This document shows, piece by piece, positions 137-13,356 of a DNA stretch of 13,356 nucleotides. Under the pieces are notes generated by a model. It was not told the origin of the DNA, did not search any database, and saw only the letters and a program-made list of their open reading frames with translations. The stretch comes from Phycisphaerae bacterium. Lineage in GTDB: Bacteria > Planctomycetota > Phycisphaerae > Sedimentisphaerales > SG8-4. The translations under genes and the position numbers were made by a program. Position 1 is the stretch's first letter. The number at the start of each line of letters is the position of its first letter. The stretch is from positions 1 through 13,356 of the forward strand of contig JAUXAH010000023.1 in NCBI GenBank assembly GCA_030614945.1, read 5' to 3'.

Positions 137-289
137 GTTGGAGGATGTGGGATGAGTTGCGGGTTGCGGGGAAAGATTTTGGGGTAATTCGCTAAATACG
201 ATAGCTAAATACTAAAATTTCCTTTGCAGTCAATTGCGGGTTTGGGTATATTAGCCACAGAGAGCACTGAGAATTAAATAGAAAACAGC

Positions 290-306
290 GGTGGGCTGTG
301 CCCACC
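290..306. repeat. short palindromic repeat (7-bp arms)
   Basis: Perfect inverted repeat: GGTGGGC at 290-296, loop TGT, GCCCACC at 300-306. It lies in the non-coding stretch 137-389, which has no other support for a gene, between the degraded end of the minisatellite and the lipoprotein fragment. There is no T tract, so a terminator is unlikely. It resembles the other small dispersed palindromes of the window. Confidence 0.6.
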
Positions 307-389
307 CTACCAACCGTGAAGCAGGCGTTTCATACGGCAAATGTGCCAGAGGATGGGGCTTATGGGGAAACAATAGTGAGGGGACACGA

Positions 390-500
390 ATGGTACGCAC
401 TTTACTCATATCTGTTTTCCTAATTCTCTCCGCCGGATGCGTCACCCGGCGCCACACCAACGGGCTTGGACGGCATCGAACAAGGAATAACGAATTATGA
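390..500 (+). pseudogene. truncated lipoprotein gene (signal peptide only)
   Basis: An ATG at 390 preceded by a GAGGGG-type ribosome binding site opens a 36-residue reading frame whose first 17 residues form a lipoprotein signal: MVRT, a hydrophobic core, then the lipobox LSAGC. The mature part lasts about ten residues before the frame enters the 42-bp dispersed repeat that starts at 475, and it stops at 498-500. I read this as a former lipoprotein gene cut off by repeat insertion, since no continuation is visible downstream. A genuine tiny lipoprotein is possible, but the last residues are then wholly repeat-derived. Substrate and role cannot be told. Confidence 0.5.
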
Positions 501-637
501 AGTAGAGATTGCCACGGCCTGCTTCGCAGGCCTCGCAATGACGATTATTAACGGATCTTTCGCTTGCGCTCAGGATGACAAGAGGAATATCGAATATCGA
601 ACAAGGAATGTCGAATTATGAAGTAGAGATTGCCACG
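475..637 (+). repeat. pair of 42-bp direct repeats
   Basis: Copy 1 at 475-516 and copy 2 at 596-637 match at about 40 of 42 positions. Both start ATCGAACAAGGAAT and end GAGATTGCCACG. Just after copy 1 is a perfect palindrome, GGCCTGC/GCAGGCC (516-532, loop TTC). Around copy 2 lie further short pieces (GAATATCGAATATCGAA at 584-600; CGCTTGCGCTCAGGATGAC near 561-579). The stretch 500-740 is built of such pieces and holds no gene I can support. Confidence 0.9.
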
Positions 638-725
638 TTCCGTCCAATCCGTCCAGAGGCCGGACTTTCAGTGCTTCGCTCGGAATGACATTGTGAGGCA
701 ATTCTTCGCTTCGCTTGGAATGACG
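535..725 (+). repeat. cluster of repeats with a shared GGAATGACA-type end
   Basis: Four related short elements end in a common tail: CTCGCAATGAC (about 533-543), CTCAGGATGACA (569-580), CTCGGAATGACA (679-690) and CTTGGAATGACG (713-724), usually preceded by GCTTCGCT or GCTTGCGCT. The same tail follows the palindromes near 2884-2896 and 11501-11512. This is a dispersed REP-like family. It lies just downstream of the 740-1246 gene, between it and the lipoprotein fragment. Confidence 0.6.
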
Positions 726-739
726 GTGGAGAGCCTTGT

Positions 740-1246
740 TCACCTGATGATTTCTTCGATGGCCCGCGCGACGATGTAGTCCGGCAGCTTTCCGAGAGCG
801 GGCCCGGCCTCATAAGCAGATATAATGCTCTTATCGGGGAAGGCTCCGAGCTTGTTAATCAGCTCATCGGCCAGTTGCGAGATTTTTTCTTCGGCCATCG
901 GCGTTTGTGCCATAGCGTACACCGCTTCCATCAAATCCTCAAGTTCCGGCCGACTGTCGTACCAGTCAAGCTGCAACTGTAATTCAAAGGCCTCCTTCGC
1001 CCTGGTGCGGTCGAAGGTATACTGAATCCCGATTGGATTGTAAGTTTCCGTCCGCTCATCGACGAAGGCCAGGCACGCATCGCGGTATGCGGCGTATTTT
1101 TCTTTGTCAAAGCTGCCAAAAGCGCGCTTTGCGGCCTCTTCCTGCAGGAACTTTTCTATTGTTGCCGCCAAAAGGTCCTTCTTAGCTTCGAGGCGCTCGT
1201 GCAGGGCTTCATAGTATGCCCTCAAAAGTAATTTTGCATCATTCAT
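740..1246 (-). CDS. hypothetical protein, acidic and helical
   Basis: This is a 168-residue soluble protein that I do not recognise. I start it at the ATG of MNDAKLLLRAYYEAL (1244-1246); an in-frame TTG at 1298-1300 would add 18 residues but has no ribosome binding site. The sequence is rich in Glu, Lys, Ala and Leu. The N-terminal 50 residues look amphipathic or coiled-coil-like, and the C-terminal half has helices with many acidic residues (SRPELEDLMEAVYAMAQ; EEKISQLADELINKLG). No signal peptide, membrane segment or obvious catalytic motif is present. It stands alone, divergent from the beta-propeller gene, with a TATAAT at 1310-1315 upstream. Codon pattern and the long clean frame support a real gene. 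A role in binding or regulation would be guesswork. Confidence 0.75.
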   Translation of the reverse strand: MNDAKLLLRAYYEALHERLEAKKDLLAATIEKFLQEEAAKRAFGSFDKEKYAAYRDACLAFVDERTETYNPIGIQYTFDRTRAKEAFELQLQLDWYDSRPELEDLMEAVYAMAQTPMAEEKISQLADELINKLGAFPDKSIISAYEAGPALGKLPDYIVARAIEEIIR

Positions 1247-1309
1247 CTCTTTTTTCGTTATGCTGCTTATCAGGTGCCATCGCCGGGTCTCAATGGTCAA
1301 TTGTATTGT

Positions 1310-1315
1310 ATTATA
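1310..1315 (-). promoter_or_regulatory. possible -10 box for the 740-1246 gene
   Basis: On the minus strand the exact hexamer TATAAT lies about 65 bases before the ATG at 1246. No convincing -35 hexamer is found at the right distance, so this is a weak promoter call. Confidence 0.3.
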
Positions 1316-1387
1316 GAAAACCCTCTAACGCCATAGGCGGGGCAAAACGTTCCTTTTCGGTAATTTCGACTTTGTTTGAGCTTGCTA

Positions 1388-1415
1388 TTGACTTGCAACT
1401 ATTCGCAGCTAAACT
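1388..1415 (+). promoter_or_regulatory. possible sigma70 promoter for the beta-propeller gene
   Basis: TTGACT (1388-1393) is followed after 16 bases by TAAACT (1410-1415), with five and four matches to the sigma70 consensus respectively. It would give a leader of about 75 bases before the start at 1496. Plausible but unproven. Confidence 0.3.
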
Positions 1416-1495
1416 TGTAATCATCAAGGTCAATATGTGCATCACGTTGATTTGTAAATGTGTGCCTAAGTAAGTGTTTTAATGGGAGGCGTCTG

Positions 1496-2794
1496 ATGAA
1501 AAGAAGAGGGCAGCCGGGGGGCAGGGACAATCGATTTGTGAAAGGGCTTTTGGCGGTATCGGTGATTTTGTTGGGGTCGGTGTCGCAGGGGCAGGAGTGG
1601 ACTCGGTTCCGCGGCCCCAACGGCCAGGGCATCAGCGAGGCCAAGACAATTCCCGTCAAATGGACGGAAAAGGACTACAACTGGAAAGTCAAGCTGCCGG
1701 GAGGCGGGCACTGTTCTCCGGTGCTGTGGGGTGAGAAGATATTCGTAACAAGCTGGAACCAGAAAGCCGGCCGGGGTATCTTTCTGGCTCTAAGCGTCTC
1801 TGACGGCGAGGTACTATGGCAAAAGGAATACGCGCTAAGTCCGTACCGTATGAACAGGGACAATAGCTACGCGACTGCAACGCCGGCAGTGGATGCTGAC
1901 CGTGTCTATGTGCTCTGGGCCACTACTAAAGAGACAATTCTGGCGGCACTGGACCACGACGGCGGGGAAATCTGGGAGCGCAGCTTCGGAGGTGTGCATT
2001 GCCAGCACGGCCCGGGCAGCACACCCATTGTCTTCGACGACATTGTGGTCTTTACCCACGAGCACGAGGGCAGCGGAAAGGATGCCCAGAGTGCCTGGAT
2101 TGCGGTGGAGAGTAAGAGCGGGCAGAGGCGCTGGAAACTGGAGCGGCAAAGCAGTCCGAAAACCTCCTACTCGACGCCCTGTGTTTACTCGCCGGGAACG
2201 GACGCTCCGCAGTTGATATTCACCAGCCGTGCTCACGGTATGACCGGCGTCGATGCCCGTACGGGGACGGTCGTGTGGGAAGTGGAGTCGGCATTCCCAA
2301 ATCGAGTGGTCAGCTCGCCCGTTATCGCAGGCGAACTGTTAATCGGCACCTGCGGCTACGGTTCCAGCGGCAAGCGCTTAATCGCAATCCGACCCGGCAC
2401 AAAGGACAAATCCACCCAACTCACAGAGGCATACAAGATTGACAGTAGTTCCGCACCGTATGTCCCCACCTCGCTGGCGATAGGAGGCCTGCTGTTTACG
2501 TTTCACGACCGTGGGCAAGTCTCCTGCCTGCGGAGCGCCACAGGCGAAGAACTCTGGCGTGAAAAGCTCGGCGGCAGATTCTACGGCTCGCCGGTGTGGG
2601 TTGACGGCAAACTGTACTGCATTACGAGGAAGGGAGATGTTGTGGTGCTCAAGGCGGGCGCCAGCTACGAGCTGCTGGCGGTGAACCCTTTAGGCGAAAA
2701 GAGCCATGCGACGCCGGCGGTGGCGGGCGGGAGAATGTACCTGAGGACGTATTCGCACTTGATATCTATCGGGCCGAAGAAAAGAGGTACCTGA
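1496..2794 (+). CDS. secreted PQQ-like beta-propeller repeat protein
   Basis: A 432-residue exported protein of the PQQ-like (pyrrolo-quinoline quinone type) beta-propeller family that is abundant in Planctomycetota. The ATG at 1496 follows GGGAGG by six bases, which decides the start over the upstream TTG at 1460. Residues 1-33 form a Sec signal peptide: a basic region MKRRGQPGGR, then a hydrophobic core ending in SVSQGQ. The mature protein opens with EWTRFRGPNGQGIS, the typical entry motif of this family, followed by repeated blades with the pattern 'G..YVL....G...W' (GGEIWERSFGG; TGTVVWEVES; TGEELWREKLGG). There is no cytochrome c CxxCH motif and no dehydrogenase signature. A true quinoprotein enzyme is therefore unlikely, and a scaffold or sugar/protein-binding role outside the cytoplasm is more probable. 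The gene stands alone and is followed by dispersed repeats. Confidence 0.92.
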   Translation: MKRRGQPGGRDNRFVKGLLAVSVILLGSVSQGQEWTRFRGPNGQGISEAKTIPVKWTEKDYNWKVKLPGGGHCSPVLWGEKIFVTSWNQKAGRGIFLALSVSDGEVLWQKEYALSPYRMNRDNSYATATPAVDADRVYVLWATTKETILAALDHDGGEIWERSFGGVHCQHGPGSTPIVFDDIVVFTHEHEGSGKDAQSAWIAVESKSGQRRWKLERQSSPKTSYSTPCVYSPGTDAPQLIFTSRAHGMTGVDARTGTVVWEVESAFPNRVVSSPVIAGELLIGTCGYGSSGKRLIAIRPGTKDKSTQLTEAYKIDSSSAPYVPTSLAIGGLLFTFHDRGQVSCLRSATGEELWREKLGGRFYGSPVWVDGKLYCITRKGDVVVLKAGASYELLAVNPLGEKSHATPAVAGGRMYLRTYSHLISIGPKKRGT

Positions 2795-2810
2795 TGTGTC
2801 TTGTCTATAT

Positions 2811-2930
2811 CGTCTCCGTGCCGGCGAGGGGTAAACAAGCCCTGCGGAGCCATCCCCAAGTTGCGCTTGAGGCTGCCACCCAACGCAGGAATGACAATAA
2901 AACGTCGCCGTGCCGGCGACGAGTAAACAA
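2811..2930 (+). repeat. two near-identical 28-bp repeats with palindrome core
   Basis: Copy 1 (2811-2838) and copy 2 (2903-2930) agree at 25 of 28 positions and both end in GTAAACAA. Copy 2 carries a perfect palindrome GTCGCCG/CGGCGAC (2904-2920, loop TGC). Copy 1 keeps only an imperfect version of it. Between them is a piece ending GCAGGAATGACA (2885-2896), the same tail seen near 680 and 11504. The stretch lies between the stop of the beta-propeller gene and the Tat-leader fragment. Confidence 0.85.
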
Positions 2931-2945
2931 CAGAGGGGTCAATAA

Positions 2946-3155
2946 TTGAAAGAATTATTCATGAAAAAGAAATCAGGTGAAAAAACAGGCGGATTCTCAC
3001 GGAGAGAGTTCATCAAGGCGTCGGCAGCGGTATCGCTGGCGGCTGTGTCACCCGGTGTCAATAATGCTTTCGCCGCAGGCTCTGACAAGGTGCGTGTGGG
3101 CCTGATTGGATGCGGCGGGCGGGGCACGGCGGGAAGGGGAATCGGGATGGAATAG
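2946..3155 (+). pseudogene. 5' remnant of a Tat-exported Gfo/Idh/MocA oxidoreductase
   Basis: The 69-residue frame contains a twin-arginine signal (FSRREFIKASAAVSLAAV, about residues 17-34) and then VRVGLIGCGGRGTAG, the first strand and glycine-rich dinucleotide-binding loop of the Gfo/Idh/MocA family. It ends at a stop after GRGIGME, whereas family members run to about 400-450 residues. The Rossmann fold and the substrate domain are missing, and no continuation exists before the repeat at 3168. A TTG at 2946 sits seven bases after GAGGGGT; the in-frame ATG at 2961 has a weaker purine-rich site, so the start is uncertain. It is a dead gene or at best a short exported peptide. Intact homologues are often neighbours of sulfatases and DUF1080 proteins in sugar-degradation clusters. 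Confidence 0.85.
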
Positions 3156-3167
3156 TAACGCCACAAA

Positions 3168-3245
3168 TCCGGTCCGGCACTTTGTTCCGACTTTTTGTCG
3201 GGACAAACTGACGGATTTCATCGAAACAAATTGACGGAGCCAGAA
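3168..3245. repeat. hairpin-bearing dispersed repeat, related to 12782-12815
   Basis: Arms TTTGTTCCGAC (3181-3191) and GTCGGGACAAA (3197-3207) pair with one G-T wobble around a five-T loop. They are followed by CTGACGG and a second related piece, CAAATTGACGGAGCC (3227-3241). The 19 bases from 3196 match the minus strand of 12782-12800 at 17 positions, and TCCGGTCCGGCAC (3168-3180) recurs exactly on the minus strand of 12167-12179. This fills the gap between the two truncated genes. Confidence 0.75.
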
Positions 3246-3279
3246 TTTCTGAACAAAAATTTAGGAAGGAGGTTTTGCG

Positions 3280-3477
3280 ATGAAACAGGTCTATATTTTC
3301 TTTTTAATCGGCATTGTGGGATATGCGATGCTCATAGGCGACTCAGCTGCTCTGGGAGTGACCGATGACAAATTTGTGCCTTTATTTGGCGGTGACAGCC
3401 TGGACGGCTGGAAGGTTAGTGACTGGTCGGGGGATTACTCCGCGGCGGCACGGTCCCAACTCTTCAACCAGGCGTGA
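3280..3477 (+). pseudogene. 5' remnant of a DUF1080 (3-keto-disaccharide hydrolase family) protein
   Basis: The ATG at 3280 follows a very strong AAGGAGG by seven bases. The first 25 or so residues are a Sec signal peptide (MKQVYIFFLIGIVGYAML...). The next part, DKFVPLFGGDSLDGWKVSDWSG, is the conserved entry of the DUF1080 concanavalin-like domain ('LFNGKDLDGW'). After about residue 50 the similarity ends: the frame then runs antisense through the GH123-like fragment and stops at 3475-3477. Family members have about 200-250 residues, so most of the domain is missing. The join lies near 3422-3435. Known family proteins are secreted and act on glycosides. Confidence 0.85.
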
Positions 3478-3779
3478 AGCTTTTCGCGCTGAAGTTCAGG
3501 GTCCTTCACGATGCCGGTCGGCCTGGGAAGCATAATAGCGTTGACGTGGTAGCGGTCGACGAATTCTCTCAGCGTGCGGACTTGCTCCGGAGCAATCCGG
3601 TACGAGCCCCGCCCTTCGGAAGGGCGGTACGAGCCATGCGGCTGGGCTACCGGCACAAAGGCAATATCCATTTTAGCATTGCCGGTTGCCTGCGCAGGAT
3701 ATTCACGGTTCGTCGATACATAATAATCCTCCTTCGTAAAGGTGATTAGAAACTCTGTGTACGTTTGGGTCCCGGTCAA
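3435..3779 (-). pseudogene. fragment of a GH123/DUF4091-like glycoside hydrolase
   Basis: This is a 114-codon open frame on the strand opposite to the DUF1080 remnant. Its second half (APEQVRTLREFVDRYHVNAI, then MLPRPTGIVKDP and REKLHAWLKSWDRAAAE) resembles the segment of GH123/DUF4091 proteins just before the catalytic barrel region, recognised by eye only. The catalytic part that should follow is absent, because the frame stops at the junction with the DUF1080 remnant. The beginning overlaps the stop of the sulfatase, and no proper start in this frame is evident. A perfect AAGGAGG followed by ATG near 3721 opens a different frame of only 24 codons, so a frameshift may also be present. It carries an in-frame 27-bp palindromic insertion (3598-3635). 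Upstream sulfatase transcription would run into it. Confidence 0.5.
3598..3635. repeat. 27-bp palindromic insertion with 11-bp direct repeats
   Basis: CGGTACGAGCC occurs at 3598-3608 and again at 3625-3635. Between and overlapping them is the perfect palindrome CCGCCCTTC-G-GAAGGGCGG (3609-3627). The repeat period is 27 bases, nine codons, so the insertion leaves the GH123-like frame open and duplicates Gly-Ser-Tyr-Arg in it. Confidence 0.8.
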
Positions 3780-5266
3780 TTAGTGTATGGTACAGTTCCG
3801 GTCTCATTGACTCTATGGCCCCACTTTTTGATGTACTGCCGGCCCGGCAGAAACTCATCATTCGTCTCCTTTAACTTTTGCGATAAAATACTGTCCATTT
3901 TTTTCTGCAATTCGGCGTGCACAGCGTTATTGCAAAGGTTATTGAGCTGATAGGGGTCTTGTTTGTTATCATAAAGCAGCCAGGGCCCGTTCAGGTCTCG
4001 CACATAGGTATAACGCCGGGTGCGTAGGCCGCGATATTCCCTGCCGCCTCGTTTTCTTGCCCACTGGCCAAAGGGCGATGGGCAGGTAATCAGCGCTGCA
4101 TCGTTGGGTTCCCGCAAGGCGGGGTCCCTCTTCGGTCTCTGCGTCCCTTTCAAAACGCCGGAGAAATCGGTTCCCTGCACTGTATCCGGTATATGTATGT
4201 CGCTTAAACCCAGCAGCGTGGGCATAATATCAGGCGTGTTGATGGGCATATCAATTATTCTGCCTTGCCTGCCGAGCGCTGCCGGGTAGCGCAACAGGAA
4301 CGGAACCAGAATGGACTCGTCCCAGGGCTTCTGCTTTTTTTGCTCGCCCTGAGAATAAAGCATGTCCCCGTGGTCAGAGGTGAAGGCAAATATGGTGTCA
4401 TTTTCCAGGCCGCATTCTTTAAGCGTTTGAAGGATTTCTCCGATGCAGTCATCGAGGGCAGCAATGTGGGCGTAGTAACCGGCAAGAGTCTTTCTCGCTT
4501 CAGCTTCAAGATGCTCAGGGACGTTGGGGCGTAATTTCAATTCTTCCGCCTTGAAGAAATCCTTATACTTTTGGGGTGCGGTGTGATAGGGAGAATGCGG
4601 CGGTCCCCACGAGAGAAAAAGGGCAAAGGGCTTGCCATCGGCGTGCTCGCGAATGTACTTCTGGGCTTCGCGGGTCTGGGCGATTGCGTCATAGCCATTC
4701 CATTTGAGCCTTACATTTTTATCAGCGTAATAGAAAGAGTTATTGTAGTTATGCGTACAGCCCAAGACCTTCCAAAATTTAAAGTCCTGGCGTCTGTCTC
4801 TGGGAATAAAGGCGGTTCTGCGATTTCCATCTAAATGCCATTTGCCGATGTACCCTGTTTCATAGCCCGCACTGTTATAAGCGTCGGCAATGGAGACGGC
4901 ATCGGTACTTAATAGCACATCGTTCAGAAAGACGCCGTGAGTGAGCGGGTATCGGCCGGTCATCAAGCTCGCACGATAAGGTGAGCACACCGGGCAGCCG
5001 GATATGGCGTTAGTTAAGTTGATGCTTTCCTTCGCGAGTTTGTCAAGATTCGACGTCCTTGCGTTCGGGTCTCCTGCGTAGCCGGCGGCCTGCGCACGCC
5101 ATTGGTCGGCGAAGATATAGACAAGATTAGGCCTGCGGACAGCGTGTTCTGTGGGGGTGCGGTGCGTGGTTGCACACCCCGCTAACGGTGTGCCCAGAAA
5201 AATCGAAGCGGCTCCAACCCCGGCGGTCTGGAGAAACTGCCTTCTTCCAATATGGCCTTTTCCCAT
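3776..5266 (-). CDS. Tat-exported arylsulfatase (sulfatase family S1)
   Basis: A complete 496-residue sulfatase that hydrolyses sulfate esters, presumably on polysaccharides, outside the cytoplasm. The leader has a twin-arginine motif (GRRQFLQTAG, residues 7-16) and then TPLAGCATT with a lipobox-like Cys31, so it may be a lipoprotein. The catalytic motif CSPYR (94-98) provides Cys94 for conversion to formylglycine, followed by ASLMTGR. Metal and substrate residues are visible in NLVYIFADQW (47-56), GKWH (141-144) and TSDHGD (296-301). The ATG at 5266 is preceded by GGGGAG at nine bases. Residues 379-387 (KRDPALREP) are encoded by a dispersed palindromic repeat that also occurs at 11314-11337. 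No formylglycine-generating enzyme gene is in the window. Exact substrate unknown; DUF1080, Gfo/Idh and GH123-like remnants nearby suggest a former sugar-degradation locus. Confidence 0.95.
   Translation of the reverse strand: MGKGHIGRRQFLQTAGVGAASIFLGTPLAGCATTHRTPTEHAVRRPNLVYIFADQWRAQAAGYAGDPNARTSNLDKLAKESINLTNAISGCPVCSPYRASLMTGRYPLTHGVFLNDVLLSTDAVSIADAYNSAGYETGYIGKWHLDGNRRTAFIPRDRRQDFKFWKVLGCTHNYNNSFYYADKNVRLKWNGYDAIAQTREAQKYIREHADGKPFALFLSWGPPHSPYHTAPQKYKDFFKAEELKLRPNVPEHLEAEARKTLAGYYAHIAALDDCIGEILQTLKECGLENDTIFAFTSDHGDMLYSQGEQKKQKPWDESILVPFLLRYPAALGRQGRIIDMPINTPDIMPTLLGLSDIHIPDTVQGTDFSGVLKGTQRPKRDPALREPNDAALITCPSPFGQWARKRGGREYRGLRTRRYTYVRDLNGPWLLYDNKQDPYQLNNLCNNAVHAELQKKMDSILSQKLKETNDEFLPGRQYIKKWGHRVNETGTVPYTN
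4107..4130. repeat. 24-bp palindromic repeat inside the sulfatase gene
   Basis: This 24-bp element starts GGTTCCCGCAAG and ends GCGGGGTCCCTC. It matches 11314-11337 at 23 of 24 positions, in the same orientation. GGTTCCCGC and GCGGGGTCC form an imperfect stem around AAG. It encodes sulfatase residues 379-387 without breaking the frame. Confidence 0.85.
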
Positions 5267-5571
5267 AAGAGATTTCTCCCCTAAATTTTAATGATTTCTG
5301 TTTCTCTAAAGGAAGACACTATGTTTCATCCTACATCGTGTTAGCTAAATAACCCACAAATAAATTTGGTTATTGTCCTAATTTGAGGAAAATGAAAAAA
5401 ACTTAATTTTTGGTCCTTATAACCCAAGCTGTTTCTTCCAAAATAAATGCCAATATTTCTGTCATTTTCCTTTTCATTTATTTTGTCATAAAAAAGAGGA
5501 AAATGCTGTAACTCCCTTATAATAAGACAGTTAAATATGAATAAATTATTGCAAATATCTTTGCATTTTCT
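5267..5571. other. AT-rich divergent spacer between sulfatase and Fic genes
   Basis: There is no gene in this stretch. It is markedly more AT-rich than the sulfatase gene. A short word, GAGGAAAATG, occurs at 5385-5394 and 5496-5505 and inverted (CATTTTCCT) at 5463-5471, with a related GCATTTTCT near 5562. These may be operator half-sites, but such words are easy to get by chance in AT-rich DNA. The base composition fits recent acquisition of the Fic gene. Confidence 0.45.
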
Positions 5572-5600
5572 TTGACATACCTGCCGATATATATTAGAAT
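5572..5600 (+). promoter_or_regulatory. strong sigma70-type promoter of the Fic gene
   Basis: A perfect -35 hexamer TTGACA (5572-5577) and TAGAAT (5595-5600, five of six) are separated by the ideal 17 bases. Transcription would begin near 5607, leaving a 34-base leader that includes the AAGGAA ribosome binding site (5628-5633). Confidence 0.75.
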
Positions 5601-5640
5601 ATAAACAACAAAAATTATCGGTCTATTAAGGAATCCTAAA

Positions 5641-6822
5641 ATGGCACTTGACCTTGAAAAATTAAGTAAGTTTGATTTGGAAAAAGACCTTGAAAAGAGG
5701 CTTTTTGAAGATAAGAAGCCAAAGCGGCTTTTCGAGTTTATTAATACCGTTCATGAGATTCAAACTGCTGAGCAATTTATAAGAGACTGCCCCGCTTATC
5801 CCAAGTCAACAGATAGCATTATAGAAGACGAACTTCGTTCGGCGGTTGGAGCTACTTTGGCAATTGAAGGCACTATGCTCAAAGATGAAGAAATCGAGGA
5901 ATCTTTTCATAAAGCAGACCTTAAAAAGAAACTCGAAAAAAAGCAACAAGAGGCACAGAATACAAGAAAGGCGTATCGATACATTATTAAGGTGGTGGAT
6001 GAAGGTGGGGACAGATTTACTTATAGCGAAGCACATATTAAAAAAATTCATCAATATCTTACAGAGGGCATTCAGTATGTGTCACCAAATGTGCCTGGCC
6101 AATATAGAGACCTCAAAGCCAGATTTGGTGAGCCGCAGAAATATAGCTTTTGCAAAAGCAAGGTTGATATTGAAGCGATAATGCCAAAATTCATAATCTG
6201 GTTAAATGAAAGTGGTTCTGGCCCCTTAACGAGCAGTGATGTTGTTAAGGCAATTATGGCTCATTATTATTTGACAGAAATCCATCCTTTTGGGGATGGT
6301 AACGGTAGGACGGCAAGGGCATTAGAAGCCCTTGTTTTATATGCAACCAACAAAAGAGCCTATAGCTATAGGTCTATGGCCAAATTTTGGAATAACAATA
6401 GAAATGAGTATATTCTTCATTTGGGAAACGTGCGGGATACCTGTAATCCCTGGGAATTTCTGATATGGGGCACAAAGGGCTATCTCCTCGAAGTTCAGAG
6501 AATTAAGGATCTGGTGTTGAAAAAAGTTAAACAACTTATGTTAAAGGATTATGTGAGTTGGCTATTTCGTAACAAAAAGATTCATCCGAGGATTTTCGGT
6601 GTCTTGATGTTATTAATAAGCTCTGGAAAAATTCCTTTTGATAAATTTATATCTTCTCCTGAATTAACAACATTATATGCTCAGCGTACGTTGAGCACAA
6701 GATACAGGGATTTTAAGAAAATGGAGAAGACGTTAGGTTTAATCCGTATTTTTAAAGAAGATGGTAAAAAGTTTATTGAGCCAAACTTTCAAAAGCTTGA
6801 GACTTTAGAGTACGAAGTCTAA
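5641..6822 (+). CDS. Fic family protein adenylyltransferase with N-terminal self-inhibition motif
   Basis: A 393-residue Fic-domain protein. Enzymes of this family move AMP from ATP to hydroxyl side chains of target proteins. The core motif HPFGDGNGRTAR (215-226) is complete: His215 as base, acidic residue at 219, and GNGR with Arg226 for phosphates. The upstream VPGQYRDLK (151-159) fits the target-positioning flap. TLAIEG (72-77) matches the inhibitory helix motif (S/T)xxxE(G/N), so this looks like a class II Fic in which Glu76 blocks ATP until released. The C-terminal 100 residues resemble a winged-helix region, as in many Fic/DOC proteins. ATG at 5641, AAGGAA at seven bases, own promoter. 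No antitoxin-like partner is adjacent. AT-rich codon use differs from the beta-propeller and sulfatase genes, suggesting transfer. The target is unknown. Confidence 0.95.
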   Translation: MALDLEKLSKFDLEKDLEKRLFEDKKPKRLFEFINTVHEIQTAEQFIRDCPAYPKSTDSIIEDELRSAVGATLAIEGTMLKDEEIEESFHKADLKKKLEKKQQEAQNTRKAYRYIIKVVDEGGDRFTYSEAHIKKIHQYLTEGIQYVSPNVPGQYRDLKARFGEPQKYSFCKSKVDIEAIMPKFIIWLNESGSGPLTSSDVVKAIMAHYYLTEIHPFGDGNGRTARALEALVLYATNKRAYSYRSMAKFWNNNRNEYILHLGNVRDTCNPWEFLIWGTKGYLLEVQRIKDLVLKKVKQLMLKDYVSWLFRNKKIHPRIFGVLMLLISSGKIPFDKFISSPELTTLYAQRTLSTRYRDFKKMEKTLGLIRIFKEDGKKFIEPNFQKLETLEYEV

Positions 6823-6911
6823 GCCAACAATAGAATTATGGAAGAAATGAAATAGACACACAATCATACGGCTAAATATAACATACCTTGTGTTGCCGAG
6901 CCAGCGACGGC

Positions 6912-8939
6912 TCAAAATGCCCTTTTTAGTCTTAATCTCTGGACAAGATAAGACAGGCCATAGACTGCCAAGCCAACAAAGTACATATAATATCGAAGAT
7001 TATAATCCAAATTGAAAATCTTTGTTACGACAGTGGGACAAAATAATATAAGCGACGCAATAAGAAACAGGGGAACCTCATACCATTTATTCTTTATTAT
7101 AAACCATCCTTGGACTGCATTCGTGAAGGCAAATGCGCCGAATATCGCCATTACAAAAATGAGCAGTGCCTGAGGCCAATTATTGATTCCGTGGAGAATA
7201 AGCTCGGCATTAAAGACAAACATAAAGGGAATAACAGCAGTTCTCAAATCATATATGAATCCCTGTATCCCCGTTTGTATGGGGTCGGATTTTGCAATAG
7301 CGGCGGCGGCATAGGCAGCCAGGCCTACAGGCGGCGTATCATCGGCAAGAATGCCGAAATAGAAACAGAATAAGTGAGCAGCCATCAGCGGAATAACGAA
7401 GCTGCTTGTAGAGCTCAGTTCTACGATTACGGGAACTGTTATTGATGCCATAACAATGTAGGTTGCTGTTGTCGGCAGTCCCATTCCAAGTATGAGACTT
7501 GCAATTGCCGTTATTAGTAACAGAGGGAAAATATAGCCGAGAGAGAGTCCTGCTACAATGTCAACAACCATACCGCTCATACCCATGAAAACAATACCAA
7601 CAATAATACCTGCGGTGGCTGTTGCCAGTGCGACAGTGAGCATATTTCTCGAGCCCGCAATCAATCCTTCACCAATGGTGTTGGTGCCATTAATTACTGC
7701 CTTTATAAAGGCCTTTGCAATGTTCGTGCTGTTTCCGGCCGCCTTGATGATTTCGCGTACAAAGACAATCACTATCAGGACAAGTATTGCGTTAAAAGCT
7801 GCCAGGTTTGGAGTGTGGCGCATAACTATTAATTCATATATCAAAACAACCAACGGGATAAGGTAATAGAATCCATTTTTAAGTACGGTCAGAAATCTTG
7901 GAATGTCTTCCTTCGGCAGTCCTTTCATTCCAAGCTTTGAGGCCTCAAGATGTGTGATGTAAAACAGGGCAAAATATGATACAAAAGCGGGAACGGCGGC
8001 GGCTTTTACAACATCAAGGTAATCAATGCCCAGATATTCAGCAATGATAAATGCTGCTGCCCCCATTATCGGAGGCATCAACTGGCCGTTAGTGCTTGCG
8101 GCAACTTCGGTTGCCGCTGCAATCTTTCCGGGATAACCGCACTTCTTCATCAAGGGAATCGTAAAGGTCCCCGTTGTAACAACATTAGCAATGCTTGAGC
8201 CTGAGAAAAGACCTGTTAATCCGCTTGAGACAACGGCTGCTTTTGCTGCGCCGCCCTTAAATCGACCAAGCAAAGAGATTGCAAGGTCATTAAAGAAATG
8301 TCCTGCACCAATCTTATCAAGCATTGACCCGAATAATACAAACAGGAAAACAGTATTGGCAGAAACATAAAGGGGGATGCCATAAATCCCTTCTGAGGAT
8401 AGAGCAATCTGGCAGAGATACCTTCGCAGTGATACCCCTCGAAAGGCAATGAACAACGGCATGTAAGAGCCTGAGAAGGCAAAGAGTGTAAACAGAATGG
8501 CAATAATGGGAAGGGCCGGTCCGATGGCGCGTCTCGAGGCTTCCAACAGAAGGATAATCAGTATTATACTCATAACAACATCCCGCCAAATGGGCAGGCC
8601 CGCCCGCATTGATATACCCTTCCAGTCAAGAACAAAGTACAGTACAGAAAGACATCCAACACCGGCCAGAATATAGCCCGAAAGCGGGATATGGCTTGCT
8701 GCATTGAAGAACCTCTCTCTACGTTTATGTTTGGCAACAGGAATTGTCAGGAATACGAGTGTTACGGCAAAAGCCAGGTGGACCGCCCTTACCGTTGTAC
8801 TATCCAGTATTATAAAACGCGGTAACGCCAGTTGAAACAGAGCCCATGCTATTGAGATAACAGAAATGATGGCTCTACCTGCCGAGACGTGCTGTCTCTG
8901 ACACGGCTGGTCGGCTTTTCTCTTGTTTCTTAAAATCAT
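6912..8939 (-). CDS. TRAP transporter fused permease (4TM/12TM), TAXI type
   Basis: A 675-residue integral membrane protein joining the small (DctQ-like) and large (DctM-like) TRAP subunits in one chain, as is usual for TAXI-family TRAP systems. It takes up a small acid, driven by an ion gradient, after delivery by the receptor at 10220-11350. The protein is hydrophobic throughout. Conserved DctM-like stretches are GLFSGSSIANVVTTG (243-257), EVAASTNGQLMPPIMGAA (278-295), GMGLPTTATY (485-494) and ADDTPPVGLAAY (532-543). Length is normal. The ATG at 8939 has no ribosome binding site now. In the inferred original order it directly followed the receptor stop codon, so translation was probably coupled. 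A small GAGCC/GGCTC stem (6898-6913) overlaps the stop but lacks a T tract. Substrate unknown. Confidence 0.96.
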   Translation of the reverse strand: MILRNKRKADQPCQRQHVSAGRAIISVISIAWALFQLALPRFIILDSTTVRAVHLAFAVTLVFLTIPVAKHKRRERFFNAASHIPLSGYILAGVGCLSVLYFVLDWKGISMRAGLPIWRDVVMSIILIILLLEASRRAIGPALPIIAILFTLFAFSGSYMPLFIAFRGVSLRRYLCQIALSSEGIYGIPLYVSANTVFLFVLFGSMLDKIGAGHFFNDLAISLLGRFKGGAAKAAVVSSGLTGLFSGSSIANVVTTGTFTIPLMKKCGYPGKIAAATEVAASTNGQLMPPIMGAAAFIIAEYLGIDYLDVVKAAAVPAFVSYFALFYITHLEASKLGMKGLPKEDIPRFLTVLKNGFYYLIPLVVLIYELIVMRHTPNLAAFNAILVLIVIVFVREIIKAAGNSTNIAKAFIKAVINGTNTIGEGLIAGSRNMLTVALATATAGIIVGIVFMGMSGMVVDIVAGLSLGYIFPLLLITAIASLILGMGLPTTATYIVMASITVPVIVELSSTSSFVIPLMAAHLFCFYFGILADDTPPVGLAAYAAAAIAKSDPIQTGIQGFIYDLRTAVIPFMFVFNAELILHGINNWPQALLIFVMAIFGAFAFTNAVQGWFIIKNKWYEVPLFLIASLILFCPTVVTKIFNLDYNLRYYMYFVGLAVYGLSYLVQRLRLKRAF

Positions 8940-8951
8940 CTAATCGATTAT

Positions 8952-9088
8952 AAAAATGCGATGCTTCGTAAGTCAATAAAATAAATGAAGTTACAAGAAT
9001 GGCCGGAGCGATTTGGTGGAATATTTGGCGTTGAGGTTCGATTCGAAAGCTAAGGGGGGCGGTTTGTGGGATTGTGTGGGCAAGCGAT
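8952..9088. other. non-coding left flank of the inserted unit
   Basis: This stretch lies between the permease start and the NYN stop codon. It has no supported gene. A short minus-strand frame runs through it and overlaps both neighbours, but it has no start or family I can recognise. It may be degraded coding sequence. Confidence 0.4.
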
Positions 9089-9871
9089 TTAAGTCTGAGT
9101 CGATTGTTTGGCGAGCGTAACGGGCGGAATATTAAGGTAACGTGCAAGGTCGTCATATTTTATGTTGATACTATCATCTGTGACGTGATTGAGTCTCCGA
9201 GCACCGCCCGGCAATAGCTTCCCATTTCGGGCGACAAAAGCAACATTTATAATTGTTTTGCCAAAGTCTTTGACGCGCTGGACTGCTGGTACATAATCTT
9301 GGTCACCTGACACTATAACGCCCACATCATAAATATCTCGTAGTGTAATCAAATCTGTTGCGAGCTTCACATCTACGGCTTTCTCTTTCCGCAATTTCTT
9401 TGTAAATGCGTTGAATGTTATTGCTCCTGCATGTCTGAACTCAATGCGTGGCCAACGTAAAGATATATTGTCCTGTAAGTTCCTCCATCCGTCAAATCTA
9501 CGACGCATTTGGTTTTCACGTTTTATTAATTTCGCAGCAATCTCTTCCATTTTCTCCTTAAGCGCATCGCCTTCGAGATTTTCAAGCTCCTCCTTGGCCC
9601 ATTTGCCTTTTTCAAGAACACGTCTCAAGGCAATAGCATCCTTACTAAGCTTTTGGAGTCCATATGGAAACATATCCAAGAATTGAACGACATACCAATA
9701 TGTTCTTACTCTCTCACCCTCAGTTACGGCAAGAGCCACAAAGTGGTTAAATAAATGATTCCAATCGGCCTGCTTCGGTAGGTAGTCGTATTGATTGAAT
9801 TGCTCAAATAATTCTACGATGGAATGCCGGAAATTCTCCCCATCTACGAATACACATACCCTCTTGGCCAC
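9089..9871 (-). CDS. NYN domain (LabA/DUF88-like) PIN-fold putative ribonuclease
   Basis: A 260-residue cytoplasmic protein of the NYN family, a PIN-like nuclease fold expected to cut RNA using acidic residues that bind a metal ion. Numbering from GTG: the N-terminal strand VCVFVDGENF has Asp10; VDVKLATDLI carries Asp167 and Asp173; VGVIVSGDQDYVPAV carries Asp190 and Asp192. This is the full acidic set. An insertion of about 60 charged helical residues (around 85-145) separates the first strand from the rest. GTG at 9869-9871 lies six bases after GGAGGG; the TTG one codon earlier is too close, so GTG is preferred. The gene splits the TAXI-TRAP operon and lies on the 13-bp-flanked unit. A role in transport is unlikely; RNA control or defence is possible but unproven. 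Confidence 0.9.
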   Translation of the reverse strand: MAKRVCVFVDGENFRHSIVELFEQFNQYDYLPKQADWNHLFNHFVALAVTEGERVRTYWYVVQFLDMFPYGLQKLSKDAIALRRVLEKGKWAKEELENLEGDALKEKMEEIAAKLIKRENQMRRRFDGWRNLQDNISLRWPRIEFRHAGAITFNAFTKKLRKEKAVDVKLATDLITLRDIYDVGVIVSGDQDYVPAVQRVKDFGKTIINVAFVARNGKLLPGGARRLNHVTDDSINIKYDDLARYLNIPPVTLAKQSTQT

Positions 9872-9894
9872 CAAATTCCCTCCATATATGAAAC

Positions 9895-9924
9895 GCGGGA
9901 GGCACGCAGCCTCCCGCCATTATA
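9895..9924 (-). promoter_or_regulatory. -10 box and leader hairpin ahead of the NYN gene
   Basis: On the minus strand TATAAT (9919-9924) is preceded by TTGGGT at a short 15-base spacing. Immediately downstream is a perfect inverted repeat GCGGGAGGC/GCCTCCCGC (9895-9917, loop of five), then the GGAGGG ribosome binding site near 9878-9883. The stem would lie at the very start of the transcript and could affect its stability or translation. The rest of 9925-10218 has no gene I can support. Confidence 0.4.
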
Positions 9925-10060
9925 TTGTGCTCGGGACGCACCCAAGCATTGTTCACTGTAATAAACTAATCCTTGTACATTATCGCAAATTGGGGCTAAG
10001 ATGTTCAAGCAAAAACTTCTAATACAACTATAAATAAAACTTATATTGCGCCGAATGACC

Positions 10061-10083
10061 AAAAAACCACATTTTTATGGTTT
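10061..10083 (-). terminator. weak hairpin with T run downstream of the TAXI receptor
   Basis: On the minus strand AAAACCA and TGGTTTT pair around an eight-base loop and are followed by two more T. It lies about 140 bases past the receptor stop, inside the inserted unit. The stem is AT-rich, so termination would be weak. If active it would separate receptor from NYN and permease transcription. Confidence 0.25.
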
Positions 10084-10219
10084 TCGAAAGGCCAGTAAAA
10101 CAAATTTTTTTCAAAAAGTTCTTACGCATTGCTGGCAGCCGGACAATAACGACAGTATGGAAAATATAGGGTCAAATCTGTTTAACCAATCAATCACGGC
10201 CAGGGTAGGTCTATACAGT

Positions 10220-11350
10220 CTAATCGATTATGAGTTCTGAATCTATGTATTTATCAAGGCCGGCTTCTTTATAGTATTTTAAAGCACCTTTGTGAATTGG
10301 AGCAGAAAGTCCCTTGAGCATGCTTTCCTTTGTCAGCACCTTGTAAGCCGGATGAAGGGCTTTGAAGTCCTCAAAGTTTTCAAATACCTCTTTTGTTATA
10401 GCGTAGACAATATCCTCATCCACCCTTTTTGACGTAACAAAGGTTGCCTTTACACCAACGGTGTTAATATCTTCAGTATTTAATGCGTAGCGATAAAATG
10501 AATGAGGTATTACTGATTTTGCATAGTAAGGATACTTTTTAAGCATCTCATCTATATCCGGACCTTCGATAGGTACGATAAACACCTTAATTCTCCCGGA
10601 TGTTGCTTCTTTAATGTTACTGCTGGGATGCCCCACCGTATAGAAAAAGGCATCGAGCCTTTCATCCTGTAATAATCCAGGCGCCTCTACGGCTTTAACA
10701 TATTCTGCAGAGATGTCCTTTTCTGTAAGTCCTATCGTCTCTAACACATCCCTTGAGTTCTGTAAATGTCCGGAACCTGGATTTCCGAGATTGACCCTTT
10801 TGGCCTTCAAATCCTTAATTTCCCTGATACCGCTCTTTTCTGATGCAATTAAGGTAATTGATTCCGGGTGAATCGAAAATACGGACCTGAGCTCTGTTTG
10901 TTTTCCGAATCTGGACCACTCGGCCAGTCCGTTATATGCCTGGAACTGTCTGTCTGATTGAACAACACCAAACACCAAATCTCCGTTTAACACCGCATTA
11001 ACATTGAACACGGAACCGCTTGTCGATTCAACAGTTGCTTTAATATTGTATTGGTCAAATTTCTTATTAACCATTCGACTTATAGCAACACCCGTAGGAT
11101 AATAGATTCCTGTTACGCCTCCTGTACCTATTGTTACAAAACTGACATTCCGCTCTCTACATCCGCCCGGAAGGATGCTAATACCGATAAGAACAGCCGC
11201 AAAAAAACGTTTCTGCAACACCGCGTTAGAAATTTTCCCCTTTTGCCCCATCAGGGGCTGTGGACTCTCTTTTAACGGGGTTTGTGTCATATTATTGCTC
11301 GTCATAGAATTTCGGTTCCCGCAAAGCGGGGTCCCTCTAACGGGGTCCAT
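10220..11350 (-). CDS. TAXI family TRAP transporter solute receptor (lipoprotein)
   Basis: A TAXI-type periplasmic binding receptor that delivers substrate to the fused TRAP permease at 6912-8939. The mature domain begins near residue 70 with VSFVTIGTGGVTGIYYPTG, the family's opening strand and ligand loop, and contains NLGNPGSGHLQNSRDVL and LDAFFYTVGHPSS, also typical. The lipobox ILPGGC puts the lipid on Cys64. ATG at 11350 follows AGGAG by eight bases, the only good ribosome site, and gives 376 residues. ATGs at 11305, 11290 and 11251 lack one. As a result 33 residues precede a normal-looking lipoprotein leader (MGQKGKISNAVLQKRFF...). The first dozen or so, DPVRGTPLCGNRNS, are encoded by the same palindromic repeat found in the sulfatase. 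Substrate is unknown; TAXI systems often handle dicarboxylates or amino acids. Confidence 0.94.
   Translation of the reverse strand: MDPVRGTPLCGNRNSMTSNNMTQTPLKESPQPLMGQKGKISNAVLQKRFFAAVLIGISILPGGCRERNVSFVTIGTGGVTGIYYPTGVAISRMVNKKFDQYNIKATVESTSGSVFNVNAVLNGDLVFGVVQSDRQFQAYNGLAEWSRFGKQTELRSVFSIHPESITLIASEKSGIREIKDLKAKRVNLGNPGSGHLQNSRDVLETIGLTEKDISAEYVKAVEAPGLLQDERLDAFFYTVGHPSSNIKEATSGRIKVFIVPIEGPDIDEMLKKYPYYAKSVIPHSFYRYALNTEDINTVGVKATFVTSKRVDEDIVYAITKEVFENFEDFKALHPAYKVLTKESMLKGLSAPIHKGALKYYKEAGLDKYIDSELIID
11314..11346. repeat. palindromic repeat at the start of the TAXI receptor gene
   Basis: 11314-11337 is the second copy of the 24-bp element in the sulfatase (one mismatch). It is directly followed by TCTAACGGGGT (11336-11346), the same arm sequence as in the 13265-13303 palindrome. 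Together they fill codons 2-13 of the receptor, just after the ATG, without breaking the frame. Confidence 0.8.
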
Positions 11351-11672
11351 TCAGTTTTCTCCTGCAATGCTTTGTTCACATCTATACACGCTATTATAAA
11401 AAAAATACATCAATTTATATACTCAAACTGACCGGTTCCGGTGAAGTTTGTTTTCAGAGGAAACAAAAATGCATTCTAATAGATTTAGATTCCTGCTCCC
11501 CGCAGGAATGACAAATCCTACTATGTTTTTATTGGAACAATATTTACGTCAATATCTGGCTTAAAATCGGTCAGCTTGGGCAGCTTAATTTTTTGCTTAA
11601 CCCGGCCCAAACTTTTGCCGATACAACATTTGGAATGTGCGAAGGCTGTATGAGTTAAAAAGGAGATTTACA
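11351..11672. other. divergent spacer between the TAXI receptor and STAS genes
   Basis: This 322-bp stretch has no gene. It holds an exact minus-strand TATAAT at 11393-11398, about 43 bases before the receptor ATG and without a clear -35 partner. It also holds the palindromic repeat at 11489-11512 and the AAAGGAG site of the STAS gene at 11658-11664. I see no convincing promoter for the STAS gene. Confidence 0.5.
11489..11512. repeat. palindromic repeat with GGAATGACA tail
   Basis: ATTCCTGC (11489-11496) and GCAGGAAT (11502-11509) form a perfect 8-bp stem around TCCCC. The following GACA completes the tail shared with the elements near 680-720 and 2885-2896. Confidence 0.75.
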
Positions 11673-12008
11673 ATGGGAATTCAAAACTTGTCGGATAATA
11701 TCGTCCTCGTGGAGCTGCCCCAGGAACCGGAAATGGCCGATGAGCTCAAAAGCGTTACTGAATTCGTGCGTGACAGAGAAGACTGCAATGTGGTAATCGA
11801 TTTTTCCAGCGTCGATATTGTAACTTCTTCAAGCCTCTCGAAGCTGCTGAAGCTGCGCAAGGTGTTGGCCGATTGTGGGCATCGGGTCGTTTTTTGCAAC
11901 GTTGCCGCTCCAACCAGGGGCATCTTTAAGGTAACCGCCCTTGATAAAATCTTTGAACTTGCTGATGACAAGTCCGTTGCCCTGACCAGCTTGCAGACGG
12001 TCAGTTAG
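11673..12008 (+). CDS. STAS-domain protein, anti-sigma factor antagonist-like
   Basis: A 111-residue single-domain protein of the STAS fold. ATG at 11673 follows AAAGGAG by eight bases. The core VVIDFSSVDIVTSSSLSKLLKLRKVL (40-65) matches the strand-loop-helix of SpoIIAA/RsbV-type antagonists, in which a Ser or Thr at the start of the helix is phosphorylated; Ser52-Ser54 are candidates. VVFCNVAAPTRGIFKVTALDKIFEL (72-96) is the conserved second half, with the usual hydrophobic helix after the last strand. Such proteins release sigma factors or other partners by binding anti-sigma kinases of the HATPase type. No kinase, phosphatase or sigma factor is adjacent. It therefore works with partners elsewhere, or is one of the orphan STAS proteins common in Planctomycetota. 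It is convergent with the 2H phosphoesterase gene. Confidence 0.92.
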   Translation: MGIQNLSDNIVLVELPQEPEMADELKSVTEFVRDREDCNVVIDFSSVDIVTSSSLSKLLKLRKVLADCGHRVVFCNVAAPTRGIFKVTALDKIFELADDKSVALTSLQTVS

Positions 12009-12010
12009 TC

Positions 12011-12035
12011 TCGTCCGTCGCCCCACGATGGACGA
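12011..12035. repeat. hairpin between convergent STAS and 2H genes
   Basis: TCGTCCGTCG (12011-12020) and CGATGGACGA (12026-12035) form ten-base arms with one mismatch around CCCCA, three bases after the STAS stop. It could act as a two-way barrier to transcription between convergent genes. No T run follows, so a classic intrinsic terminator is not shown. Confidence 0.5.
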
Positions 12036-12053
12036 AGGACGAAGGGTGGCCAC

Positions 12054-12713
12054 TCAGCTTCCAAGTTCAGCTGATACAAGAACTTTCCTGCAGGTGCAAT
12101 AATTTCCCAGGTGACATAAAGCAAGTTTTGAGGTAGCGAATCCGGCATCGATCCGGCAAAGGCGTTGTGCCGGACCGGACTCGACCTTATTCGTTTCGCC
12201 CAGCCCCTCGGAGGGATGGGGTTCGCCGAATCCAATTGTTATATGCGGAGAAAAATTTCCAAAACCTGATTTTTCCGGGTAGTTCTTAATCCAGAATAAA
12301 GTTGCTTCCTCAACCTCGGGAGGGGAAAACAGCATAGCCGTAGTTACATCATAGGTAAAATATGGTGCGAGTCTTTCCATAACCTCTTCGTGAAGCAATT
12401 GAAGCTCTTTTGTTTTTTCTATCTTAAAACCCGACACTTTTTTGCCGGTTGGAATTATTTCAGCACGAATGTCAACAACTCTTAGCTCGCTGAAAGAATA
12501 CTTTTTTGCAATGCCCCGCAAAATTTCCTTGATATCAGGAATGTCTTTTTCATTGATACAACCCATAGCCAGGGAAATATGGGGCAGACAATTCTCATAA
12601 TTGAGGATTATTTTATTATCAAACGTTTTGAGCAGCTCTCTATTTACTTCGATTGCATAATCGGTCATCTCGTCTGAAGGTAATAATACGACATCAACTG
12701 CTATTCGGGCCAT
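12054..12713 (-). CDS. 2H phosphoesterase (2'-5' RNA ligase-like protein)
   Basis: A 219-residue member of the 2H phosphoesterase superfamily (LigT / 2'-5' RNA ligase fold), which acts on cyclic phosphates or 2'-5' bonds of RNA or nucleotides. Both catalytic motifs are seen: LPHISLAMG (His45, Ser47) and SPHITIGFGE (His157, Thr159). ATG at 12713 gives MARIAVDVVLLP, the usual first strand; the ribosome site is weak. The C-terminal FATSKLALCHLGNYCTCRKVL (192-212) is cysteine-rich and looks conserved in a subgroup. Between it and the second motif lie about 27 residues (HPSEGLGETNKVESGPAQRLC...) encoded by palindromic repeat DNA and flanked by CGAATCC exactly 90 bases apart, so an in-frame insertion is likely. 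It may lie in a surface loop. Natural substrate unknown; the gene is not in an operon. Confidence 0.88.
   Translation of the reverse strand: MARIAVDVVLLPSDEMTDYAIEVNRELLKTFDNKIILNYENCLPHISLAMGCINEKDIPDIKEILRGIAKKYSFSELRVVDIRAEIIPTGKKVSGFKIEKTKELQLLHEEVMERLAPYFTYDVTTAMLFSPPEVEEATLFWIKNYPEKSGFGNFSPHITIGFGEPHPSEGLGETNKVESGPAQRLCRIDAGFATSKLALCHLGNYCTCRKVLVSAELGS
12137..12233. repeat. 90-bp palindrome-rich insert in the 2H phosphoesterase gene
   Basis: CGAATCC occurs at 12137-12143 and 12227-12233. Between the copies are a stem TCCGGCA/TGCCGGA (12152-12158 and 12168-12174) and an imperfect palindrome CCAGCCCCTC-G-GAGGGATGGG (12200-12220). GTGCCGGACCGGA (12167-12179) recurs inverted at 3168-3180. 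The 90-base period equals 30 codons and keeps the frame. Confidence 0.65.
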
Positions 12714-12781
12714 ATTCTACTTGAAACCTGAAATATATATAAAACTTGTGTTAAGTTTGCCTTTTTCTCGATTTTCCGGCC

Positions 12782-12815
12782 CCGTCAGTTTGCTCCGACA
12801 GACTACCAGAGCAAA
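12782..12815. repeat. hairpin repeat related to 3181-3214
   Basis: TTTGCTC (12789-12795) and GAGCAAA (12809-12815) are perfect arms around 13 bases. On the minus strand the right part reads TGTCGGAGCAAACTGACGG and matches 3196-3214 at 17 of 19 positions. It overlaps the stop codon of the secreted remnant at 12803-13045. Confidence 0.7.
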
Positions 12816-13045
12816 TTGCCGGGCTCCGCCACGCTGCTGGCGAAGTCGCCGCAGGCGGGTTCTCCCGAAAGCCGTACGGCCCGCAGGTTACCCGATGCCT
12901 CGACTTTGTCCTTGCCAATGCGCAAATACACCCACTCAAGGGCATCTTTTTTTTTCGCAGCGATTTGGGGGAGGTCTCGCACAGTGATTAGCTCTGCTGT
13001 ACAAGGACTAACCAACAGTAGCCACACACAAAGAAAAAACAGAGC
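12803..13045 (-). pseudogene. 5' remnant of a secreted protein
   Basis: The frame starts with a convincing Sec signal peptide (FFLCVWLLLVSPCTAEL) followed by about 60 residues (ITVRDLPQIAAKKKDALEWV...RIGKDKVEASGNLRAVRL). The start is either GTG at 13025-13027 or, with a better AAAGGA site, CTG at 13040-13042; the frame is open from 13045. The last 20 or so residues come from palindrome-rich DNA that ends in the dispersed hairpin at 12782-12815, where the frame stops. This looks like a longer exported protein cut short by repeats, the same fate as the lipoprotein fragment at 390. I do not recognise the family. A true small secreted protein cannot be excluded. Confidence 0.45.
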
Positions 13046-13253
13046 TTATTCCTTTAGCGTTTCCTTCTCACCATCACCGCACCTGAACCCGCTACGCTTT
13101 TACTGCCCGGCTTGGGTGTTATAGAACCACATTTATCGTAACCTTTCTGCGTTTGGCAAACCGGCCAAAGGCGATACGATTTTATATTCTGCTGACTGAA
13201 AATCAAGCAAAAAAAAGAGCGAATTCGTGCAACGCCTAACTATATTTCTCCGC
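13046..13253. other. non-coding stretch with nothing recognised
   Basis: No reading frame with a start, ribosome site and family resemblance is visible on either strand. There is an eight-base A run near 13209-13216. No promoter is convincing. Confidence 0.4.
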
Positions 13254-13312
13254 GCAATCTGTTTACCCCGTTAGAAATGTACCTTCTCTTTTTCTAACGG
13301 GGTGCAATCTGT
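13254..13312. repeat. 41-bp palindromic element with 9-bp flanking duplications
   Basis: ACCCCGTTAGAAA (13265-13277) and TTTCTAACGGGGT (13291-13303) are perfect 13-bp arms around a 13-base loop. The element is bounded by GCAATCTGT at 13254-13262 and 13304-13312. The layout is that of a tiny transposable palindrome with target duplication. The arm TCTAACGGGGT also occurs at 11336-11346 beside the receptor start. From 13313 to the window end nothing else is recognised. Confidence 0.85.
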
Positions 13313-13356
13313 GGCTAACAATAACCCAAAACCGCAATTCCCGTCAACACATAAAA

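Follow-up and report, generated by a model that had tools for sequence, protein, structure and literature searches.

How did a nuclease gene come to stand between two genes of a transporter operon, and what arrived with it? We address this question in a 13,356-nucleotide stretch of DNA from a Phycisphaerae bacterium (GenBank assembly GCA_030614945.1, contig JAUXAH010000023.1, positions 1 to 13,356 of the forward strand), referred to below as the window. Here a gene for a LabA/DUF88-type NYN nuclease, preceded by a short RNA of two hairpins, separates the gene for a TAXI receptor from that for the TRAP permease DctM (Table 1). The sequences incline us modestly towards a joint account in which a foreign insert of 1,267 bp would have brought in an RNA–NYN module, the RNA would act on the nuclease and the permease would have gained a promoter.

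A 1,267-bp insertion at a stop/start junction

The sequence TCTAATCGATTAT is present in two exact copies that start 1,280 bp apart, one on either side of the NYN gene. The duplication is exactly 13 bp long, since the adjoining base differs on each side. On the minus strand the right copy carries the last codons of the receptor and its TAG, while the left copy finishes in TAGA, the final A of which is the first base of the permease ATG at 8939. The initial annotation had described both copies and their relation to the two genes in the same terms, and our gene calls agree with it. Within the target, TAATCGATTA forms a perfect 10-bp palindrome. By itself the repeat is unsurprising: ∼1.3 pairs of exact 13-mers are expected by chance in 13.4 kb (13356^2/2/4^13), and longer chance repeats are also present in the window. 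It is noteworthy because of its exact position and because of relatives in which the operon is uninterrupted.

Table 1. Positions of the features discussed, numbered from the first nucleotide of the window.
Feature	Position	Strand	Remark
TRAP permease DctM	6912..8939	-	operon partner downstream of the insertion
Left 13-bp target duplication copy	8939..8951		abuts permease ATG
Hybrid promoter, TTGACT (insert) + TATAAT (across junction)	8947..8976	-	11/12; permease ATG 7 nt on
Inserted DNA, 1,267 bp	8952..10218	-	not at the same junction in eight relatives
NYN (LabA/DUF88-type) nuclease gene, 260 aa	9089..9871	-	GTG start at 9871; TTG at 9874 alternative
Two-hairpin RNA, model R1 match 74.5 bits	9889..9949	-	window sequence is itself in the model
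Hairpin 2, loop UGCGU, terminator-like	9895..9917	-	weak T-run in the window copy
Hairpin 1, loop UGCGU	9929..9947	-	covariation
Promoter-like pair TTGAAC-18-GATAAT, ahead of the RNA	9979..10008	-	9/12; chance strength taken alone
Front part of promoter/leader-like stretch, continuing in L055, L065 and L197	10091..10214	+	cut off near the insertion end
Right 13-bp target duplication copy	10219..10231		contains the receptor's final codons and stop TAG (minus strand)
TAXI receptor (NMT1_3)	10220..11350	-	operon partner upstream of the insertion

A search for the TAXI pair without the NYN gene, set beforehand in the initial annotation, was decisive. A permease search of 61 genomes gave nine long loci (L021–L029) plus partial matches; the nearest genome, G001, has 38% of sampled 31-mers in common with the window. 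Both TAXI genes were seen in eight genomes (G001, G037, G029, G022, G020, G004, G016 and G035), and an NYN gene lies between them in 0/8. In seven of the eight the receptor stop (TAG, TAA or TGA) is followed without a gap by the in-frame ATG of the permease, the arrangement that had been predicted by collapsing the two repeats. In G004 the ATG directly after the receptor stop is out of frame, and the permease start lies within a few codons further on. The junction of G037 holds a single perfect 13-mer (L022:3516), and exactly 13 bases are common to both flanks. The other empty junctions carry diverged forms of the 13-mer, that of G001 being without some codons ahead of the stop; genome G002 runs out within the junction region. 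Because eight relatives are free of the insert and G037 has a single 13-mer, we conclude that 1,267 bp were inserted at the stop/start junction with duplication of 13 bp, and regard this as established by the relatives.

An identical empty junction would be produced by the reverse history, in which the operon originally contained the NYN gene and recombination between the 13-bp repeats removed it from the relatives. This is highly improbable, however, given that NYN is absent in eight relatives of varied distance, only one of which has the exact 13-mer, and that this NYN subfamily is rare among 148 relatives; a search of these gave two full-length matches (65% and 57%), one 35-residue piece and four further short matches near 40%.

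At the permease end, insert and junction together form a hybrid promoter that agrees with the consensus at 11 of 12 positions with a spacing of 18. Two sites of that strength are present in the window, as compared with 0.25 expected (60 shuffles). The insertion thus appears to create a near-consensus promoter for the permease, its sequence being observed and its activity a proposal made after the fact; a leaderless permease mRNA from this promoter is possible. The insertion is in itself a clean case of an RNA–NYN module landing in a conserved operon and linking a near-consensus promoter to the downstream gene. The suggestion in the initial annotation that the insertion explains the missing ribosome site of the permease did not survive the comparison: by eye, the uninterrupted junctions likewise show no ribosome site ahead of the permease ATG, and there was thus none for the insertion to remove.

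The NYN nuclease and its two-hairpin RNA

The NYN domain named in the initial annotation was confirmed by Pfam (PF01936; E 1.1e-13, 52.4 bits against a curated cut-off of 24.2), which matches nothing else in the protein. The predicted model (predicted local distance difference test, pLDDT, 89.9) is closest to VPA0982 (2qip) and to the NYN domain of MARF1, as expected of the NYN/PIN-like fold. The acidic residues D10, D167, D190 and D192 are invariant or near-invariant among 36 aligned sequences, and the protein is a predicted RNase. The window protein differs from LK/NYN ribonucleases (LabA, DUF88) such as VPA0982 and MARF1 in being ∼250 aa long, in having a long helix between strands and in its linkage to an RNA gene. 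The DUF88 nuclease and its fold are the subject of PMC2848206.

A protein search gave 896 NYN relatives at E<=0.001, among them P0002 to P0011, which are 78–90% identical and encoded on metagenome contigs. A genome scan with the 36 aligned NYN relatives gave 52 loci, and one with the single NYN protein as query gave no match. There was likewise no match in a PDB sequence search with alignment A1 or in NCBIfam with three members of the NYN family as queries, and PADLOC returned weak HEC-09 and NYN matches only. A plasmid or phage origin was considered and rejected, as no match was obtained with P0110 in plasmids and phages, with the insert in plasmids or with A1 in viral contigs. In a tree of the NYN loci the phylum labels are partly clustered (16 changes as compared with 19.4 when shuffled; 8/33 inner branches starred); partial genes and the loci L113 and L122, which have internal stops, were left out, and proteins were ended at the first stop. 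Transfer of the NYN module between phyla is plausible. The phylum labels, about a dozen with at least one doubtful, were taken from record titles and are rough. The doubtful case is L099 (G396; the same place as G171:C36), labelled Actinomycetes: because the same contig place recurs in a genome of the class of G001, its label is in question and phylum counts are approximate.

Side-by-side comparison of upstream regions revealed, between promoter and start codon in most NYN loci, an RNA of ∼62 nt with two hairpins, which the initial annotation had overlooked in the window. In an alignment of 34 sequences (A3), 93.9% of cells across 16 pairs are standard pairs, and pairing falls to only 38–54% when partners are shifted by 1 to 3 columns; both sides have changed in 12 of the 16 pairs. 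The weakest measure is the number of further pair types, a count matched by 16 of 500 shuffles. A3 excludes seven diverged sequences, placed in A4, as well as L098, L118, L123, L124, L125, L126, L128, L131 and L138, of which L128 is included in A4. In the diverged form (seven sequences, six labelled Patescibacteria) 90.7% of cells are paired, as compared with 37–58% when shifted. Covariation therefore provides strong evidence that the ∼62-nt RNA folds as two hairpins. For each hairpin, 23 of the 34 loops contain UGCG.

Several observations weigh against the joint account given at the outset. The diverged set of seven shows both-side changes in hairpin 2 and none in hairpin 1; co-variation between the two loops is not significant (p 0.11); and in the window copy the T-run behind hairpin 2 is poor. 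Hairpin 2 is one of three terminator-like sites in the window, where 1.1 are expected. The initial annotation gave the NYN gene its own -10 box; a -10-like box is indeed present, but the promoter-like pair to which it belongs, at 9/12, has only chance strength, there being seven such pairs in the window with 3.9 expected by chance. Rfam 15 gave no match to the RNA at the gathering score, either in the window copy or in 14 NYN loci, and below threshold the window stretch reached 23.1 bits with sroE, for which 51 are required. The two-hairpin RNA is thus apparently uncatalogued, and in titles and abstract openings from a library lacking most subscription papers we found no RNA linked to this NYN subfamily. 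Acido-Lenti-1 RNA (RF01687) was seen in 2 of the 14 NYN loci searched (L089:5476-5529 and L102:10195-10240).

Of the 53 sources with an NYN match, 39 are recognised by the covariance model R1 (E<=0.0015), whose training set accounts for 34 of them; among the empty-site loci it matches 0/8. Among the 14 unmatched sources, seven have the diverged form, L125 matches weakly (E 0.02), and L123 and L124 have hairpins by eye; the remainder (L132, L133, L135 and L136) are distant NYN matches. Each of 33 genomes picked for carrying the RNA–NYN pair gave one R1 match (best 150 candidates per genome). Among 298 genomes of the class of G001, R1 matches were found in eight (best 18 candidates). Four of these lie beside NYN, namely two whole genes, one that is frame-broken and one that ends after ∼35 residues. 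The other four are weaker (37.4, 28.8, 27.6 and 25.8 bits), with no NYN found adjoining, the strongest of them immediately following an unrelated gene. As the four NYN-adjoining genomes were already in the 52-locus set, this search bears on whether the RNA occurs without NYN and does not increase the number of pairs. At L130, L122, L113 and L138, broken NYN copies (truncated, internally shortened or frame-broken) adjoin an RNA that the model continues to recognise.

RNase E and RNase III control their own synthesis through their own leaders. The two hairpins could similarly act in cis, as an attenuator in the NYN mRNA leader, with NYN limiting its own synthesis by cutting or binding them. Hairpin 2 resembles an intrinsic terminator, which is in keeping with such a role. 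In L097 and L102, however, RNA and NYN lie on opposite strands and the RNA points away from the gene, with, by eye, a promoter-like pair ahead of the RNA and a T-run behind hairpin 2. Because the RNA has been kept in these two loci, where a leader role is impossible, it appears to be more than an NYN leader. Two facts temper this argument. L097 and L102 are sister sequences in the tree (100/99), so that the divergent layout is probably one rearrangement, and in the remaining 37 of 39 R1-positive sources the RNA lies ahead of NYN on the same strand. On these sequence patterns we favour a separate RNA partner over a pure leader, while still allowing it a cis role in the common layout; the attenuator is a serious alternative of lesser probability.

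Likeness to type III toxin–antitoxin loci

As described in PMC5086642, a type III toxin–antitoxin locus has a single promoter, followed by a structured RNA, a terminator-like hairpin and an RNase gene. The common NYN layout has the same order as these systems (ToxIN, CptIN and TenpIN), a likeness at the level of sequence only, and the divergent L097 and L102 depart from it. The RNA–RNase pair thus seems to be arranged like type III loci, with toxicity putative. There are differences that count against this reading. The type III antitoxin is a tandem repeat array and the RNA here has two hairpins and no array; a single tandem repeat was found in the window, a perfect 14-bp unit in 9.7 copies at 1-136. 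The type III toxin is of the ToxN kind, whereas the protein here is an NYN nuclease.

With a separate RNA partner as the preferred reading, NYN in the common layout would be read by transcription passing the second, terminator-like hairpin, and the RNA would inhibit or control the nuclease in a manner comparable to type III antitoxin RNAs. More tentatively, and as a proposition we would put somewhat short of even, the pair may represent an unnamed two-component class in which an RNA of ∼62 nt with its own promoter serves NYN in trans, either as its antitoxin or as an obligate partner, under about a dozen phylum labels and on varied vehicles. A conserved RNA tied to one LabA/DUF88-type NYN subfamily gives these nucleases a concrete candidate partner to bind, cut or be silenced by. 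If the RNA neutralises the nuclease, the RNA-antitoxin principle would extend beyond the fold of the three type III families treated in PMC5086642. A defence-island context was considered for the NYN loci and not adopted: restriction or CRISPR models gave matches to some of 63 neighbour proteins, but each Pfam family was seen in two neighbours at most.

Insert ends and vehicles

How the insert was moved can be judged in part from its ends. The initial annotation proposed a defined cargo unit, mobilised in trans by an enzyme for which the palindrome TAATCGATTA would be the recognition site. The exact 13-bp duplication at a site sparing both genes, the palindrome itself and the presence of NYN modules inside transposon-like elements elsewhere all suit that proposal. 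It nevertheless appears unlikely. As the annotation itself had noted, there are no terminal inverted repeats (none in the scan used), and the insertion has no transposase. A shallow search of 148 genomes (best two candidates in each) gave no relative of the whole insert with these ends. Other NYN loci, which the annotation had suggested searching for the same 13-mer or for other 13-bp duplications, have different flanks: inverted repeats with 8-bp duplications in L093 and L105, and an 88-bp repeat in L107. Finally, the right end cuts a promoter/leader-like stretch that continues in other genomes.

Matches to this right end in G074, G079 and G124 all end at one base, beyond which similar sequence continues in the three genomes and leads to a ribosome-site-like word and an ATG; the window stretch breaks off four bases ahead of the 13-mer. 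These matches are individually weak (E 4e-4, 0.0025 and 0.026 per genome), and 29 of 119 genomes show some short right-end match (best seven candidates), both of which reduce the force of the observation. Because the right end cuts a leader-like stretch that continues in three genomes, a captured chromosomal fragment fits better than a cargo unit. Foreign DNA would have entered between the receptor and permease genes by capture of such a fragment at a staggered break, with 13 bp duplicated. Retroposition was rejected: the insert has no 3' poly(A) tract and begins ∼210 bp upstream of the -35 box, and it is therefore not a plain copy of a transcript. The leader-like stretch is seen at L055:1082, L065:1533 and L197 (minus strand), ahead of an ATG, and consists of similar halves of the GGCCAGGGTAGGTCTATCCGTAAGGACGAC and GCGTCATTAACCCTGGCC types. 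It is possibly an undescribed structured leader; Rfam gave no match to it up to E 0.1 in L055, L065, L070, L072 and L076.

At other loci the RNA–NYN pair is carried differently. An inverted-repeat scan of 38 loci passed three (L093, L105 and L109), as compared with 0/380 for shuffled flanks. In L105 the pair lies inside an IS1595-type transposon with an ISXO2-like transposase, inverted repeats and an 8-bp duplication. IS1595-family transposons carry passenger genes. The window insertion differs from this family in having no transposase, no inverted repeats and a duplication of 13 bp. L093 resembles L105 in its inverted repeats and 8-bp duplication but is transposase-less. L109 (9/12, duplication AAAAAACC) was not counted, being a low-complexity pair, and L112, with a weak inverted-repeat pair and a 5-bp duplication in a narrower scan, is absent from the three loci that passed the wider one. 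L107 carries an 88-bp repeat of the start of the next gene, of which its relative L207 has one copy; BLAST matched the right flank only, so this is not full proof of an empty site. A 63-bp repeat (90%) around NYN in L089 was not counted as a target duplication, as it may be a dispersed repeat. The RNA–NYN pair would, on this account, spread by any vehicle at hand.

An open reading frame at L120:4972-5904, ending 97 bp before the NYN match, has weak IS240/IS1-type transposase matches (E ∼1e-6); this locus belongs to the named isolate Formosimonas limnophila, and its RNA match reaches a comparatively low 31.3 bits. Within the window, a dispersed repeat of the GTTCCCGCAAAGCGGGGTCCC type is present at 11306-11350, with ∼25 short matches over many contigs of G001, and also at 4104-4131; the longest receptor reading frame extends at its N-terminus into this type of repeat. 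Near the operon are genes for a Fic/DOC protein (5641-6822) and a 2'-5' RNA ligase-like protein (12054-12713).

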